From an uncultured Fretibacterium sp. (GTDB lineage: Bacteria; Synergistota; Synergistia; Synergistales; Aminobacteriaceae), in the NCBI GenBank assembly GCA_946186205.1, contig CAMHMH010000001.1, forward strand, positions 1 through 64,000: a stretch of 64,000 nt of DNA, read 5' to 3'. Under the pieces are notes generated by a model that saw only the letters and a program-made list of their open reading frames with translations, was not told the DNA's origin and did no database searches. Below are positions 10,512 to 60,805 of the stretch, piece by piece. The position numbers were made by a program, and so were the translations under genes. Each line of letters begins with the position of its first letter. The first letter of the stretch is position 1.

Positions 10512-11735
10512 CTAATTGAGTTTCTTTGCGTCAATGTTCAGACCTTCAAGCGTTTTTGACAGTGAGCTGATGTTCATTTTTCCCGATTTCATTTCAGCCA
10601 GCACTGCTTTGCTTGTCTTAATGCCGTAACCGAAATTAACATTTGCTTCAACCCGCTGTATTGCCTTCTGATTTTCGCCGAGCATGTAATACACCAGTCC
10701 CGCAAAAATATTATTCGTCCAGTCTGAACGCTCAAGGTTTTCACAGAGTGCTTCAAGGTGATTAAGTGCCTCGACTCTTTTGCCATCGTTAAGAGCCTCG
10801 ACTACACGGAATTTTTCGGCTTCGACTTTCCAGGGGTCATTACGCAGTACAGAACGCCATACATTATTGAACTCGTCAAAACATTCTGAGGCTTCTTTTG
10901 CGTTTTCGGCTGACTTTGCACGGTACACCCAGTACGGCGGGTAAACTCTGAACTCATCTTCAAGCGCAATCAGCATAGCTCTTCTCTTTGCGGTGTCAGA
11001 CTCATTAACGGCCTTCAAGAAGTCATCTATTCCGCTCTGAACGATTCTATACTCGTCAGGAAGGTGATACTGTCTCAGCAAACGCCATGACGAATCAATC
11101 AGCCTCGACTGAAGCGTGTTGTACTGCTCATGTTCGGCGCGGTTAATCTTCAACATGTCTTCAGCGAGTCCACGGCGAAATTCTGCGTCAAGTTTTGCGT
11201 TCTGATGAGCGTAATATTCCGACACGCACGAGACAGCTACAGCTCCGGCGATTGTTACTATTGCGACTGGCGGGAATGCCGCAGAAATTTTTGAGAGTCC
11301 GTTTTCCGCGAGGTTAGACACGATATTTCCCGCTGCATTTTCCCCCATGCCCTGAAGTATTCCTGACGCTCCCGAAACGCTCCGTGTTATATGCTGTTCG
11401 GCCCATGCGTCATAATTGGCCTGTAATTTTTTCGCGGCCTCAAGATTGACCGTCTTATTGCTGATTGCGTTCATTAATTCTTGGTAGAGGGATATGATTT
11501 CGTTGTCTGACTCTATGCTTCCGAGCTTGAGATTGCTGATGATGTTCCTGTACTCAGTATCGAGAATTGCGCGGTCATTCGTGCTGAGTATGCGGTGAAT
11601 TGATACGACGGCCATGTTCAGGGCTAATACTGTGTGCTGAGGGTCATAATGTTTATCTTCTGCGTGAACGTTAAGAGGCTGAACGAAAATTAATACCGTG
11701 AGAATGAATGACATCAACAAGAATTTTGCTTTCAT
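10512..11735 (-). CDS. Exported helical repeat protein, function unknown
   Basis: 407 residues with a signal peptide (MKAKFLLMSFILTVLIFVQPLNVHA). A Gly/Ala-rich hydrophobic stretch at about residues 125-175 (SGASGILQGMGENAAG, PPVAIVTIAGAVAVSC) resembles those of the other minus-strand proteins nearby. The C-terminal half is helical with TPR-like pairs (HLEALCENLERSDWTNNIFAG). GGAGGA precedes the ATG by 7 nt. It ends in TAG, and the next ORF continues in the same frame. A possible -10 (TATAAT on the minus strand at about 11768-11773) lies upstream. Confidence 0.6.
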   Translation of the reverse strand: MKAKFLLMSFILTVLIFVQPLNVHAEDKHYDPQHTVLALNMAVVSIHRILSTNDRAILDTEYRNIISNLKLGSIESDNEIISLYQELMNAISNKTVNLEAAKKLQANYDAWAEQHITRSVSGASGILQGMGENAAGNIVSNLAENGLSKISAAFPPVAIVTIAGAVAVSCVSEYYAHQNAKLDAEFRRGLAEDMLKINRAEHEQYNTLQSRLIDSSWRLLRQYHLPDEYRIVQSGIDDFLKAVNESDTAKRRAMLIALEDEFRVYPPYWVYRAKSAENAKEASECFDEFNNVWRSVLRNDPWKVEAEKFRVVEALNDGKRVEALNHLEALCENLERSDWTNNIFAGLVYYMLGENQKAIQRVEANVNFGYGIKTSKAVLAEMKSGKMNISSLSKTLEGLNIDAKKLN

Positions 11736-11917
11736 TGTGATTCCTCCTTTGGGATTTTGACGGAAGCATTATACATTTAGTGAGTGGGGTATTAACGGGC
11801 GGTTTGCTTTTGAGTGTGTTATATTTTTTCACAAGATAGGAATCACAGAGCAGGTTTACAATCATATGAGACAAGTTGACAATATGTCTACGTTGAACGG
11901 GTAACGCTGAATGATGA

Positions 11918-11926
11918 TGATATAAT
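11918..11926 (+). promoter_or_regulatory. Extended -10 promoter of the small antitoxin-like gene
   Basis: TGATATAAT (TGn plus a perfect TATAAT). No -35 at normal spacing; TTGAAC lies 22 bp upstream. Transcription would start near 11933, about 40 nt before the ATG. Confidence 0.5.
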
Positions 11927-11973
11927 CAGGATAATTTCAGCAAGATACGCAGAAAAAAAGGAGAAAAAACGTT

Positions 11974-12219
11974 ATGTCGACGGCTATTAGGGAATATCTT
12001 GCGCTTGCCAAAACACCAGAAGAGCGCGAAGAAATGAAAGAACGCTTAATCGCACTCATGGAAATGAAAGACGAGGATATAGATTTCTCAGATATACCGA
12101 GAATAACAGACTTCTCTCGCCTTGTACGCGGAAAACCCATCATCGACAAAATACGCGAACATAACCGGCAGAACCGACTCAGGCGCGAACGTATGCAGAA
12201 GGCAGAAACTGTACAATAA
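11974..12219 (+). CDS. Small BrnA/DUF4415-like antitoxin-type protein
   Basis: 81 residues, highly charged. The segment DEDIDFSDIPRITDFS followed by RLVRGK resembles the conserved N-terminal motif of BrnA/DUF4415-type antitoxins and some small DNA-binding partners. The rest is predicted helical and basic (REHNRQNRLRRERMQ). AAGGAG precedes the ATG by about 10 nt. No toxin gene is next to it: rpsO is downstream and an unrelated minus-strand gene upstream. It could be an orphan antitoxin or an unrelated small protein. Confidence 0.5.
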   Translation: MSTAIREYLALAKTPEEREEMKERLIALMEMKDEDIDFSDIPRITDFSRLVRGKPIIDKIREHNRQNRLRRERMQKAETVQ

Positions 12220-24796: not shown

Positions 24797-26199
24797 CGGG
24801 GAAAATATATCTTGTCGGTTCAGGGCCTGGCGATTCGGGACTGATGACACTGCGAGGGCTTGAGGTGCTTCGGCGCGCTGAGTGTGTGATATATGATCAT
24901 CTTGTGGGCGAGGGGATTACAGCAATGATTCCTGAGAACGCAGAAATGATTGACGCGGGGAAATTTTCGGGACATCATAAACTTTCACAGAATGAAATCG
25001 AGTCGGCCATGATAGACCGTGCATTGTCAGGAAGAATTGTAGTTCGTCTCAAAGGAGGAGACCCGTATATATTCGGTCGCGGAGGAGAAGAGGCAGAAGC
25101 GATTATTCGTGCGGGAATAGATTTTGAGGTTGTCCCGGGCGTAACGTCAGCTTCAAGCGTACCTGCCTATGCTGGGATTCCGGCGACGCACAGGGATTTC
25201 TGCTCAGGAGTCAACATCTTCACGGCTCACGACAAGAACGGAAGTATACCCGGCATCACTGAGTCAACGTCAATATTCTTGATGGGTGTGAACAATTCAG
25301 AGTCATTGCAGAGGAAACTTCTTGAGACTATGAGTCCTGACACGCCTTGCGCTATAATTGAGAATGGAACTACATCAAGGCAGCGGGTCATACGCACAAA
25401 ACTTTCGGGGCTTCATGAGTCAGTCGTCAGCAAAAATATCAATCCTCCCGCCATAATTGTTGTTGGGAATGTGGCGACTCTCAATCTTGACTGGCGCAAA
25501 AATCTTCCTTTAGCCGGCAAAAGAATCATCATCACGCGCCCTGAAGGAAGGTCAGAAAGATTAGCGTCAAGACTTCACGACATGGGAGCAGAGATAATCT
25601 TAATGCCGACGATAAAGACCCGGACTCTTCACGGCTCAATCGACAATGTTAATTTATCCGGCTATGATTGGGCAGGATTTACGAGTGTTACGGGGGTTAA
25701 AGCACTCTTTGAGCTTTTGTGCGAGTCAGGGCGGGACATACGCGAGCTTGACGCTAAAATTGCGGCGATAGGTTCAGCGACAAAAGAGGCTCTAAATTCT
25801 CACGGGCTTAAGGTTGACTATGTGCCAGAAGTTTTTGACGGTCATCACATGGCCGTGGGCTTGTCGAAAATTGGGGGAAAAATTTTGATGTTCCGCGCTG
25901 AAAACGGGACTCCCGAAATTGATTCAGTCTTCATGAATTGCGGAATTGATTTCACGAATGTTTGTATTTACCGTGCTGATTATGTAAAATTGTCTCACGT
26001 TCCAGAATTTGCAGACATAATAATATTCACATCGTCTTCAACTGTGCGGGGATTTTCCGCGAGTACTGACAAATTGCGCGAGTCATTAGCGGTATGCATA
26101 GGTAGTCAGACGGCGGACGAAGCAATGAAGGCGGGATTTTCACGTGTAAAGATTGCGGAACAGGCTGATATTGATTCGCTAGTGAAAGCCTGTACGTGA
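24793..26199 (+). CDS. Uroporphyrinogen-III C-methyltransferase / uroporphyrinogen-III synthase fusion
   Basis: Two enzymes in one 468-residue chain. Residues ~1-240 are a SUMT (CobA-type) domain: VGSGPGDSGLMTLRG, VVRLKGGDPYIFGRGGEEA and the VPGVTSASSVPAYAGIP substrate loop. Residues ~245-468 are HemD-like (GKRIIITRPEGRSERLASRL). Together they turn hydroxymethylbilane into precorrin-2, the branch to sirohaem and cobalamin. The fusion is common in Firmicutes, Synergistota and others. Translationally coupled to hemC. Confidence 0.92.
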   Translation: MTGKIYLVGSGPGDSGLMTLRGLEVLRRAECVIYDHLVGEGITAMIPENAEMIDAGKFSGHHKLSQNEIESAMIDRALSGRIVVRLKGGDPYIFGRGGEEAEAIIRAGIDFEVVPGVTSASSVPAYAGIPATHRDFCSGVNIFTAHDKNGSIPGITESTSIFLMGVNNSESLQRKLLETMSPDTPCAIIENGTTSRQRVIRTKLSGLHESVVSKNINPPAIIVVGNVATLNLDWRKNLPLAGKRIIITRPEGRSERLASRLHDMGAEIILMPTIKTRTLHGSIDNVNLSGYDWAGFTSVTGVKALFELLCESGRDIRELDAKIAAIGSATKEALNSHGLKVDYVPEVFDGHHMAVGLSKIGGKILMFRAENGTPEIDSVFMNCGIDFTNVCIYRADYVKLSHVPEFADIIIFTSSSTVRGFSASTDKLRESLAVCIGSQTADEAMKAGFSRVKIAEQADIDSLVKACT

Positions 26200-26227
26200 T
26201 GAATATATTTTGCGGAGGTAATATTTC

Positions 26228-27190
26228 ATGCGTAAAATTTTTCTTTCGTTGTTACTTGTTGCGTTGATGTGTTCAGTTTTGTTTGCTGACGAGAAATTCA
26301 CGAGCAAGACTCTACCTGTTGAGCTGAAAGACAATCCCATAACGCTGTATGAGAATATCCCGTTCAATTCGGGGAAAGAGCGCGGGGCTCAAATGTTCTC
26401 TCTTGCGATGGACATTCTTCAGCCGGACAGCAAGACACCATTGCCGTTAATTGTCTACGTATCGGGCGGAGGGTTCATAATGGCACCGAAAAACAACTGG
26501 ATACAGCAAAGGATGAAACTAGCTGAGGCCGGTTATGTTGTTGCGAGCATTGAATACCGTCATGCGCCGCTGTCGAAGTTCCCGCTTCCTTTGGAGGACT
26601 GCAAACTTGCTATAAGATGGTTAAGAGCGCACGCGAGTCAGTACAACATTGACGTGAACCGGGTCGGCATATTGGGTAACAGCGCGGGCGGTTATCTTTC
26701 GTCATTCGTGGGAGTAACGAACGGGATGAAGGAGTTTGACAAGGGGGACTTTCTCGAATATCCGAGCGATGTATTATGCGCGGTTGATATTTTCGGTATC
26801 TCTGAAGTAATGAGCATAGGAGACGATTACCCTGAGGAAGAACGGAAGCTCCACGACTCAGCCGGAATCACTGAGGCAATGTGGGTGAAAGGAGTTCCGG
26901 GCTTCGGAGGGCCAGACGGAGGCGTGAAAGATTTCCCGGAAGAGTCAAAGAAGGCAAGCCCGTTGTATTACGTCAGCGAAAAATCTGTGCCTATGCTCTT
27001 AATGCACGGGGACAAAGACAAGTCAGTATCACCGAGTCAGACCGACAAACTATATCAGGCACTCAAGGCAAAAGGAGTTGAGGCTGAAAGGTACGTAATA
27101 CCCGGAGCAGCTCACGGCGGGCCGCATTGGATTCAGGAGCCTGTGATGAAAATTATGATTGAGTTCTTCGACAAGCACCTCAAGAAATAA
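26228..27190 (+). CDS. Exported alpha/beta-hydrolase esterase, BD-FAE/HSL-like
   Basis: 320 residues with a signal peptide (MRKIFLSLLLVALMCSVLFA). Alpha/beta-hydrolase signs: oxyanion region YVSGGGFIMAPKNNW, nucleophile elbow GNSAGG, acid in HGDKDKSV and the catalytic His in GAAHGGPHW. Close in layout to bacterial feruloyl/acetyl-xylan esterase-like and lipase families. The substrate cannot be told from sequence; a role in trimming acetyl or feruloyl groups in gut material is possible. Good SD (GGAGG), single gene, strong terminator. Confidence 0.85.
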   Translation: MRKIFLSLLLVALMCSVLFADEKFTSKTLPVELKDNPITLYENIPFNSGKERGAQMFSLAMDILQPDSKTPLPLIVYVSGGGFIMAPKNNWIQQRMKLAEAGYVVASIEYRHAPLSKFPLPLEDCKLAIRWLRAHASQYNIDVNRVGILGNSAGGYLSSFVGVTNGMKEFDKGDFLEYPSDVLCAVDIFGISEVMSIGDDYPEEERKLHDSAGITEAMWVKGVPGFGGPDGGVKDFPEESKKASPLYYVSEKSVPMLLMHGDKDKSVSPSQTDKLYQALKAKGVEAERYVIPGAAHGGPHWIQEPVMKIMIEFFDKHLKK

Positions 27191-27204
27191 ATTGATGATT
27201 ACGA

Positions 27205-27238
27205 TTCCCCTTCATGAAAACGTGAGGGGGAATTTTTT
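27205..27238 (+). terminator. Terminator of the esterase gene
   Basis: TTCCCCTTCATG pairs with CGTGAGGGGGAA around AAAA (12 pairs, two wobbles), followed by TTTTTTG. Confidence 0.9.
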
Positions 27239-27326
27239 GTTGATTTTTTTTGTGTAGAATGCGTTTTTAATATCCATAAAGTAAAATAACACTTTTTACG
27301 TAGCAGAAATAACGTTCCGTTTTGAC

Positions 27327-27614
27327 ATGTCGAGGGCAAAAATCAAGACGGATGAAGGCAGTAATCACGCTGAAATAACATTGCCTCCGCTTGATATGAA
27401 GTCAACAATTGACGTGAACAATGTGCGTGTTTATGACAGCACCAGAGGAATATGGGATTTTGTAGCTGACACGATAACTTTCAGCAATACATTCGACTAT
27501 AACGCGGTGGGCGAGATAATACGCGAAAAACGTGATGAGATAAACGCACGTCTTGTTCTCGAAAATTTAGCTTCTGCATTTGGCTATACATCTACAATTT
27601 CTTTTTCTGATTAA
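27327..27614 (+). pseudogene. DUF4230-like C-terminal fragment
   Basis: The translated end (AEITLPPLDMKSTIDVNN, then VRVYDSTRGIWD and a charged helix) resembles the C-terminal half of DUF4230 proteins, where a beta-rich domain ends in an ITLPPPEI-type strand. The frame is open upstream of the ATG (reading ...FYVAEITFRFDM) up to a stop at 27282-27284, and those codons fit the domain, but no start or SD is present. The N-terminal half including the usual membrane anchor is missing. It is therefore probably a remnant, or a gene whose real start was lost. It lies between two strong terminators. Confidence 0.5.
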
Positions 27615-51616: not shown

Positions 51617-51950
51617 CACGGGCAGTCCAGACGGCCGCCGAGTCATTCGGAGGAAAGTCCGGGCTTCACAGGGCAGGATACCGGGTAACGCCCGGCCGGA
51701 GCAATCCGAGGGAAAGCGCAGCAGAAAATACACAGCCATCAACACGGCAACGGTGAAAAGGCGATGGGTAAAAGCCCGCCAGTCATGGAGCAATTCATGA
51801 GCTTTGCAAGCCCTATCCGAAGCAAGATCTAATAGCGAAGGTTAAAGGTTGCCCGCCTGCTTCAGGGTACGATCGCTTGAGGAGTTCCGCAAGGAATGTC
51901 CCAGATAAATGGCCGTCATATACAGAACCCGGCTTACGGACTGCCCGCCA
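51617..51950 (+). ncRNA. rnpB: RNase P RNA component
   Basis: Catalytic RNA that matures tRNA 5' ends. P1 is formed by CGGGCAGTCC at the 5' side and GGACTGCCCG at the 3' side. Universal cores are present: GAGGAAAGTCCGGGCT near the 5' end, GGTGAAAAGG-type P10/11 region, and AGATAAATGGCCGTC plus ACAGAACCCGGCTTA near the 3' end. About 330 nt, bacterial A-like. ORFs predicted inside it (51597-51800) and the first 26 codons of the track helicase ORF are artefacts. Confidence 0.95.
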
Positions 51951-51973
51951 TTTCACGAAAGGTATATCACACT

Positions 51974-59756: not shown

Positions 59757-59804
59757 TGAATCAGGGTATAATATGCGTATCCAGTTTTACGGAGGTGAAT
59801 CACA

Positions 59805-60458
59805 ATGCAGGTTACTTCAATGTTATCTGCCGGGTATCTTGAGCCTATGCAGAACATATCGCGTGTCCAGAAACTGACGGACTACGAGAGAGATACAGAC
59901 CAGTCAAAGCAGCAGAAAGAGCAGGAAATCTTAGCGGAAGAGCAAGCCTTGAAAGCCAAGCTCGGAGACTCGGCGCAAGTTCACACTGTCTATCATTACA
60001 CGATGGGCACTGACGGAAAACGCTACATCACGGGCGCGTCAGTAACAATGAAGGGCAGCGAGGAAGATCTTAACCGTGTGAGCGGAGGACTCGCAACTGA
60101 GGACATGCAGAGCCGTCAGCAGGCAATCACAGACTCACTCAAGAAAGATGCTGAGAAGACAGAGAAGAACCAGACAATAATTCAGCAGGAGTCCGACAAG
60201 CGCAGGGCTGAAGAGAAGAAAGACAAAGCAGAGGACGAGAAAGACTCCCAGATTCGCGAGCTTAAGCAGATTCAGCAGGAAGTAATAGCGCACGAGGCAG
60301 CGCATCAGGCAGCAGCGGGTGAATTAGGCGGAGGAGTCAGCTACACTTACACGCAAGGCCCGGACGGCCAGAAATACATTACAGGCGGAGAAGTCCCCAT
60401 ACGCTTCAAAGAAGGTGCGACACCCGAAGAGACTTTGCGGAACATGCAGAAGGTATAG
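59805..60458 (+). CDS. SprA/CJM1_0395-like putative metalloprotease, cut by in-frame TAG
   Basis: 217 residues up to TAG 60456-60458. A charged coiled-coil middle (about residues 95-160) leads to the zinc-protease-like HEAAH motif (QEVIAHEAAHQAAAGELGGG) and the family tail pattern YTQGPDGQKYITGGEVPI. The family continues beyond that with an APAxPSxQD segment, which here lies after the stop in the same frame (60459-60725). SD GGAGGTG is strong. Whether this is a pseudogene, a read-through protein or a sequence error is open. Confidence 0.75.
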   Translation: MQVTSMLSAGYLEPMQNISRVQKLTDYERDTDQSKQQKEQEILAEEQALKAKLGDSAQVHTVYHYTMGTDGKRYITGASVTMKGSEEDLNRVSGGLATEDMQSRQQAITDSLKKDAEKTEKNQTIIQQESDKRRAEEKKDKAEDEKDSQIRELKQIQQEVIAHEAAHQAAAGELGGGVSYTYTQGPDGQKYITGGEVPIRFKEGATPEETLRNMQKV

Positions 60459-60725
60459 GCGGCGGCAAACGCTCCGGCAGACCCTTCAGGGCAGGACATG
60501 AAAGTTGCGGCAAAAGCAGCGGCACTCGCGGCAAAAGCAAGAAGTGAAATCTCTCAGCAAACCTCATCCGAACACAAAGAGACCGTAGCAAAAGGAACAC
60601 CGATATTTGAGGCGGCCAAGAATCAAAGCGCGCAGAATCAGCAAGACCCGGAGAAAAACGGCGTTATGTCCATTCTCGCTTCAGTAAAAGAATTGCAGAT
60701 AATGAACATGATTCCGGCGGCGTGA
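60459..60725 (+). pseudogene. In-frame C-terminal part of the SprA-like protein after the TAG
   Basis: Reads on in the same frame: AAANAPADPSGQDMKVAAKA matches the normal continuation of SprA-related proteins (APAEPSxQDxxVAAxA). An ATG at 60498 exists but has no SD. Ends near a terminator. With the upstream part the protein would be about 306 residues. Confidence 0.65.
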
Positions 60726-60750: not shown

Positions 60751-60784
60751 AATCCTCCTGTGAAAGTCTGCGGGAGGATTTTTT
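60751..60784 (+). terminator. Terminator after the SprA-like gene
   Basis: AATCCTCC pairs with GGAGGATT around a 14-nt loop, followed by TTTTG. It closes the reading frame that continues past the TAG. Confidence 0.85.
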
Positions 60785-60805
60785 GTACACTCAAAGGAGA
60801 CTCAC

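Follow-up and report, generated by a model that had tools for sequence, protein, structure and literature searches.

A SprA-related metalloprotease gene of an uncultured Fretibacterium has an in-frame TAG at an invariant glutamine codon, probably through a recent nonsense mutation

The closest described counterparts of the locus analysed here are recent bacterial pseudogenes with a single nonsense mutation, in which one transition to a stop interrupts an otherwise conserved, single-copy gene that shows no further decay. The locus resembles them in each of these respects and differs from them in nothing notable; its base is known from the assembly consensus. It also resembles amber (UAG) recoding (pyrrolysine, UAG-to-Gln codes and programmed read-through) in that an in-frame TAG stands in place of a glutamine codon and the sequence beyond it is conserved. 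However, it departs from amber recoding in its intact RF1, the lack of a CUA tRNA among those found, the lack of a PylS match over the cut-off, and the single, unconserved site. The third comparison is with the SprA-related family (Pfam PF12118), for which a zincin-like fold has been predicted (PMC3650047). CJM1_0395 of Campylobacter jejuni, a member of this family, has been proposed to be secreted via the flagellar export system (PMC5223770); that is a proposal for the Campylobacter protein. The gene shares with the family a match above the curated cut-off and a HExxH motif, but in this copy the stop lies inside the profile match.

The window (the whole 64,000-nucleotide stretch of DNA that was analysed) had been predicted to contain a SprA-like metalloprotease gene whose frame is open on both sides of one TAG, with its Shine–Dalgarno sequence, HEAAH motif and terminator intact. 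Each of these elements is in place (Table 1). The ORF that begins at ATG 59805 runs to the end of the TAG at 60458, and the frame beyond it continues to TGA 60723–60725. HEAAH (codons 163–167) and GGEV (codons 194–197) are both N-terminal of the TAG, and an in-frame ATG at 60498 lies 13 codons past it.

Table 1. Features of the interrupted SprA-related locus in the window.
Feature	Position	Strand	Basis
Shine–Dalgarno-like GGAGGTG, also kept in sister species G010	59791–59797	+	Window sequence and sister sequence
N-terminal 217 aa of the SprA-related putative zinc metalloprotease, up to the stop, carrying HEAAH and GGEV	59805–60455	+	ORF list, profile match, alignment
In-frame TAG, codon 218; glutamine codon in 31/31 intact orthologues (19 CAG, 12 CAA)	60456–60458	+	Codon alignment
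Rest of the gene (88 codons and TGA), including the conserved AAANAPADPSGQD--VAAKAA block; untranslated unless read through	60459–60725	+	Orthologue alignment, substitution counts, profile match
Hairpin and T-run, terminator-like, also in the sister species	60751–60786 (about)	+	Read by eye; loop longer than the scan allows

The part of the product that precedes the stop matches PF12118 with 72.1 bits (E 6.8e-20, profile positions 137–257). Reading the TAG as a residue raises the match to 99.6 bits (E 2.8e-28) and extends it to profile position 292. The curated cut-off of 27.3 bits is thus exceeded with and without read-through, which bears out the SprA-like assignment. The HExxH zinc-binding motif is present as HEAAH, and H163, E164 and H167 are invariant in the orthologue alignment. 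In the translated product the C-terminal part of the domain is incomplete, ending at profile position 257 of a match that reaches 292. No second PF12118 copy was found in the 2.75 Mb assembly.

A SprA-related match was obtained in 61 of 101 genomes (that of the window and 100 relatives), with almost every member of the genus among them. The records recovered for the genus are MAGs of gut Synergistaceae, and many come from the rumen, reticulum or other gut sites of ruminants. The 306-aa read-through frame aligns over its full length with orthologues that are 56–95% identical, and the closest of these, from sister species G010 (95% identical protein), is intact. Codon by codon, the TAG falls on a glutamine in all 31 intact same-genus orthologues. 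None of these 31 has an internal stop, and the TAG occurs in this genome only. The 88 codons that follow it are the normal C-terminus of the intact proteins, and the original prediction was correct that this part is the recognisable continuation of the family and that one base change (here a single transition from the invariant glutamine codon) suffices to create the stop. Orthology is further supported by the gene order holA, LD-carboxypeptidase, sprA and AEC-type transporter, which is common to many relatives. On this evidence, the gene is a genus-wide orthologue of the SprA-related putative zinc metalloprotease.

Two neighbouring observations concern other copies of the locus. In the sister species, an insertion of ~1.4 kb separates the LD-carboxypeptidase gene from sprA (locus L107, G010 contig 12, ~26060–27526) and carries a 437-aa ORF that resembles, by eye, an IS200/IS605-type TnpB; in the window the site is uninterrupted and the two genes lie ~50 bp apart. 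In genome G025, a 97% complete draft assembly, the sprA copy is split over two frames and the start of the HEAAH stretch is gone (L142, contig 39, ~11316–12192). This loss is independent of the TAG in the window, and a second loss of sprA makes a recent one in the window's genome unremarkable for the genus.

Taken alone, 88 open codons behind a TAG are not unusual; it is their homology that exceeds chance. Across 220 kb (the window and the following 156 kb), at least 80 open codons follow the stop in 12/35 TAG-ended, 12/96 TAA-ended and 3/42 TGA-ended ORFs. In most of the TAG-ended cases examined, the next gene shares the frame and has its ATG only a few codons further on; the TAG is then often near the ribosome-binding site of that gene, and this position of the TAG seems to account for part of the excess. 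Long open frames after TAG were accordingly rejected as a sign of recoding, as most of the listed cases are the next gene starting in the same frame. Elsewhere in the window, an RNase P RNA (bacterial class A; 51619–51951) lies directly upstream of a 551-aa ORF; beyond the TAG of this ORF the frame stays open for 80 codons, none of them ATG.

In this genome TAG serves as an ordinary stop, as the original prediction held. Of 173 long ORFs counted across 220 kb of contig 1, 35 end in TAG, and RF1 is full-length with its GGQ motif. The suppressor search that the prediction proposed detected no anticodon CUA among the 44 tRNAs found in the genome; glutamine tRNAs with anticodons CUG and UUG are present. 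Because tRNAs for Ile(GAU) and Ala(UGC) were not seen, either the assembly or the search lacks a few genes, and a suppressor could conceivably have escaped detection. PylS gave sub-cut-off matches only, as in most control genomes. The 220 kb were also compared, in both directions, with ~697 kb of the sister genome. Among ~105 matched genes (35,209 aligned amino acids), three in-frame stops were recorded, of which one, the TAG at codon 218, is genuine. The TAG at 72404 is the upstream gene's own stop, the start of the sister ORF having been set too early, and the ORF that contains the TGA at 141051 is spurious and runs antisense to a 215-aa gene. Genome-wide recoding of TAG was rejected on the combination of an intact RF1, the absence of a CUA tRNA and of a PylS match over the cut-off, and the single genuine internal stop.

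Substitution counts indicate the age of the stop. In the comparison with the sister species, dN/dS is 0.03 for the part preceding the TAG and 0.13 for the part following it, of which the first 33 codons, the core, again give 0.03. Pairs of intact relatives show the same pattern, since all of them vary at the far C-terminus. When changes were polarised with three outgroups, the region after the TAG showed, on this branch, 6 synonymous against 3 non-synonymous changes and, on the sister branch, 2 against 4. Neutral evolution along the entire branch would have been expected to produce ~40 non-synonymous changes in this region (~199 non-synonymous sites at ~0.2 neutral changes per site). By these counts there is no decay on this branch either before or after the TAG, and 3 changes against ~40 mean that the stop is young, unless read-through occurs. 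It is estimated that the region after the TAG evolved free of constraint for no more than about a tenth to a quarter of the branch, if at all; the upper figure is set by changes that could not be polarised.

Taken together, the orthology, the unique stop, the lack of decay downstream and the normal termination apparatus make it probable that a recent point mutation turned an invariant glutamine codon into TAG and inactivated the gene in this genome. In such an event, codon 218 would become TAG, RF1 would terminate there, and the resulting 217-aa protein would keep HEAAH and GGEV but not the last part of the following helix or the conserved APADPSGQD--VAA segment. The ribosome-binding site, the N-terminal part and the terminator would still be intact because the event is young. 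The same data also fit a wrong assembly base, a minority allele, or low-level read-through that preserves the C-terminus, and the reality of the TAG base is itself something we infer. The original prediction had left recent pseudogene, sequencing error and amber read-through side by side. The invariant glutamine and the lack of decay favour the first two, and read-through as a system is disfavoured, since the stop is unique, RF1 is intact, no CUA tRNA or PylS match over the cut-off was found, and ~105 genes yielded no other genuine internal TAG.

The strongest rival is that the gene is intact in the organism and the TAG stems from a sequencing or assembly error or from a minority variant in the consensus. 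A single transition would account for everything, there is no decay on either side of the stop, and the ribosome-binding site and terminator are intact. However, the assembly looks sound (99.68% complete with 0.39% contamination, 2.75 Mb in 19 contigs), the ~105 compared genes contained a single genuine internal stop, and they aligned in 106 pieces for 105 genes, hence with hardly any frameshifts. An error is therefore a real but unlikely explanation, less likely than a recent loss-of-function mutation.

Read-through of the TAG, whether by near-cognate pairing of a glutamine tRNA or by an undetected suppressor tRNA, could also yield enough full-length protein to keep the C-terminus under selection. 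Glutamine tRNAs with CUG or UUG anticodons can misread UAG at a low rate; both occur in this genome, and what follows the TAG has stayed conserved along this branch. Nevertheless, RF1 is intact, no CUA tRNA occurs among the 44, PylS stays below its cut-off, and the compared genes contain no other internal TAG. A programmed site would be conserved, yet all relatives compared lack the stop, which speaks against programmed read-through. Read-through is thus highly improbable. The narrower proposal of a lineage-specific leaky stop, at which a near-cognate glutamine tRNA or an unassembled suppressor keeps the full-length metalloprotease under selection, is if anything less credible still; if true, it would be a leaky stop specific to one lineage in a bacterial chromosomal gene.

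Least plausible of all is that the 217-aa protein is functional with a new C-terminal end, or that the halves are made separately, the second from ATG 60498: HEAAH and GGEV do precede the stop and an in-frame ATG does follow it, but 17 residues besides Q218 that are invariant in the alignment lie after the stop, the stop cuts a predicted helix (207–221) and removes another (231–252) in a weak model, and the ATG codon is unconserved, relatives mostly having R there.

A recent nonsense mutation, the preferred reading, would remove the conserved block Q-AA-APADPSGQD--VAA and spare HEAAH and GGEV. The AlphaFold model, which places codon 218 inside helix 207–221, is weak (pLDDT 62, pTM 0.29), and a search of solved structures returned chance matches only. 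The truncated product is probably not a working enzyme.

As a side result that may interest specialists, the SprA-related gene is, within Synergistales, nearly confined to flagellin-bearing genomes, in keeping with the link that has been proposed between the family and flagellar export. Among 101 Synergistales genomes, flagellin was present in 60/61 with the gene versus 21/40 without it (Fisher p 1e-8, shared ancestry uncorrected), and outside the genus in 20/21 versus 18/37 (p 4e-4, likewise uncorrected). Because shared ancestry is uncorrected, the association is a lead only. For the locus itself, the observation is confirmed and its explanation is ordinary. It also carries a caution: an open frame and a conserved continuation after a TAG here probably reflect a young single-base change, not a changed code.
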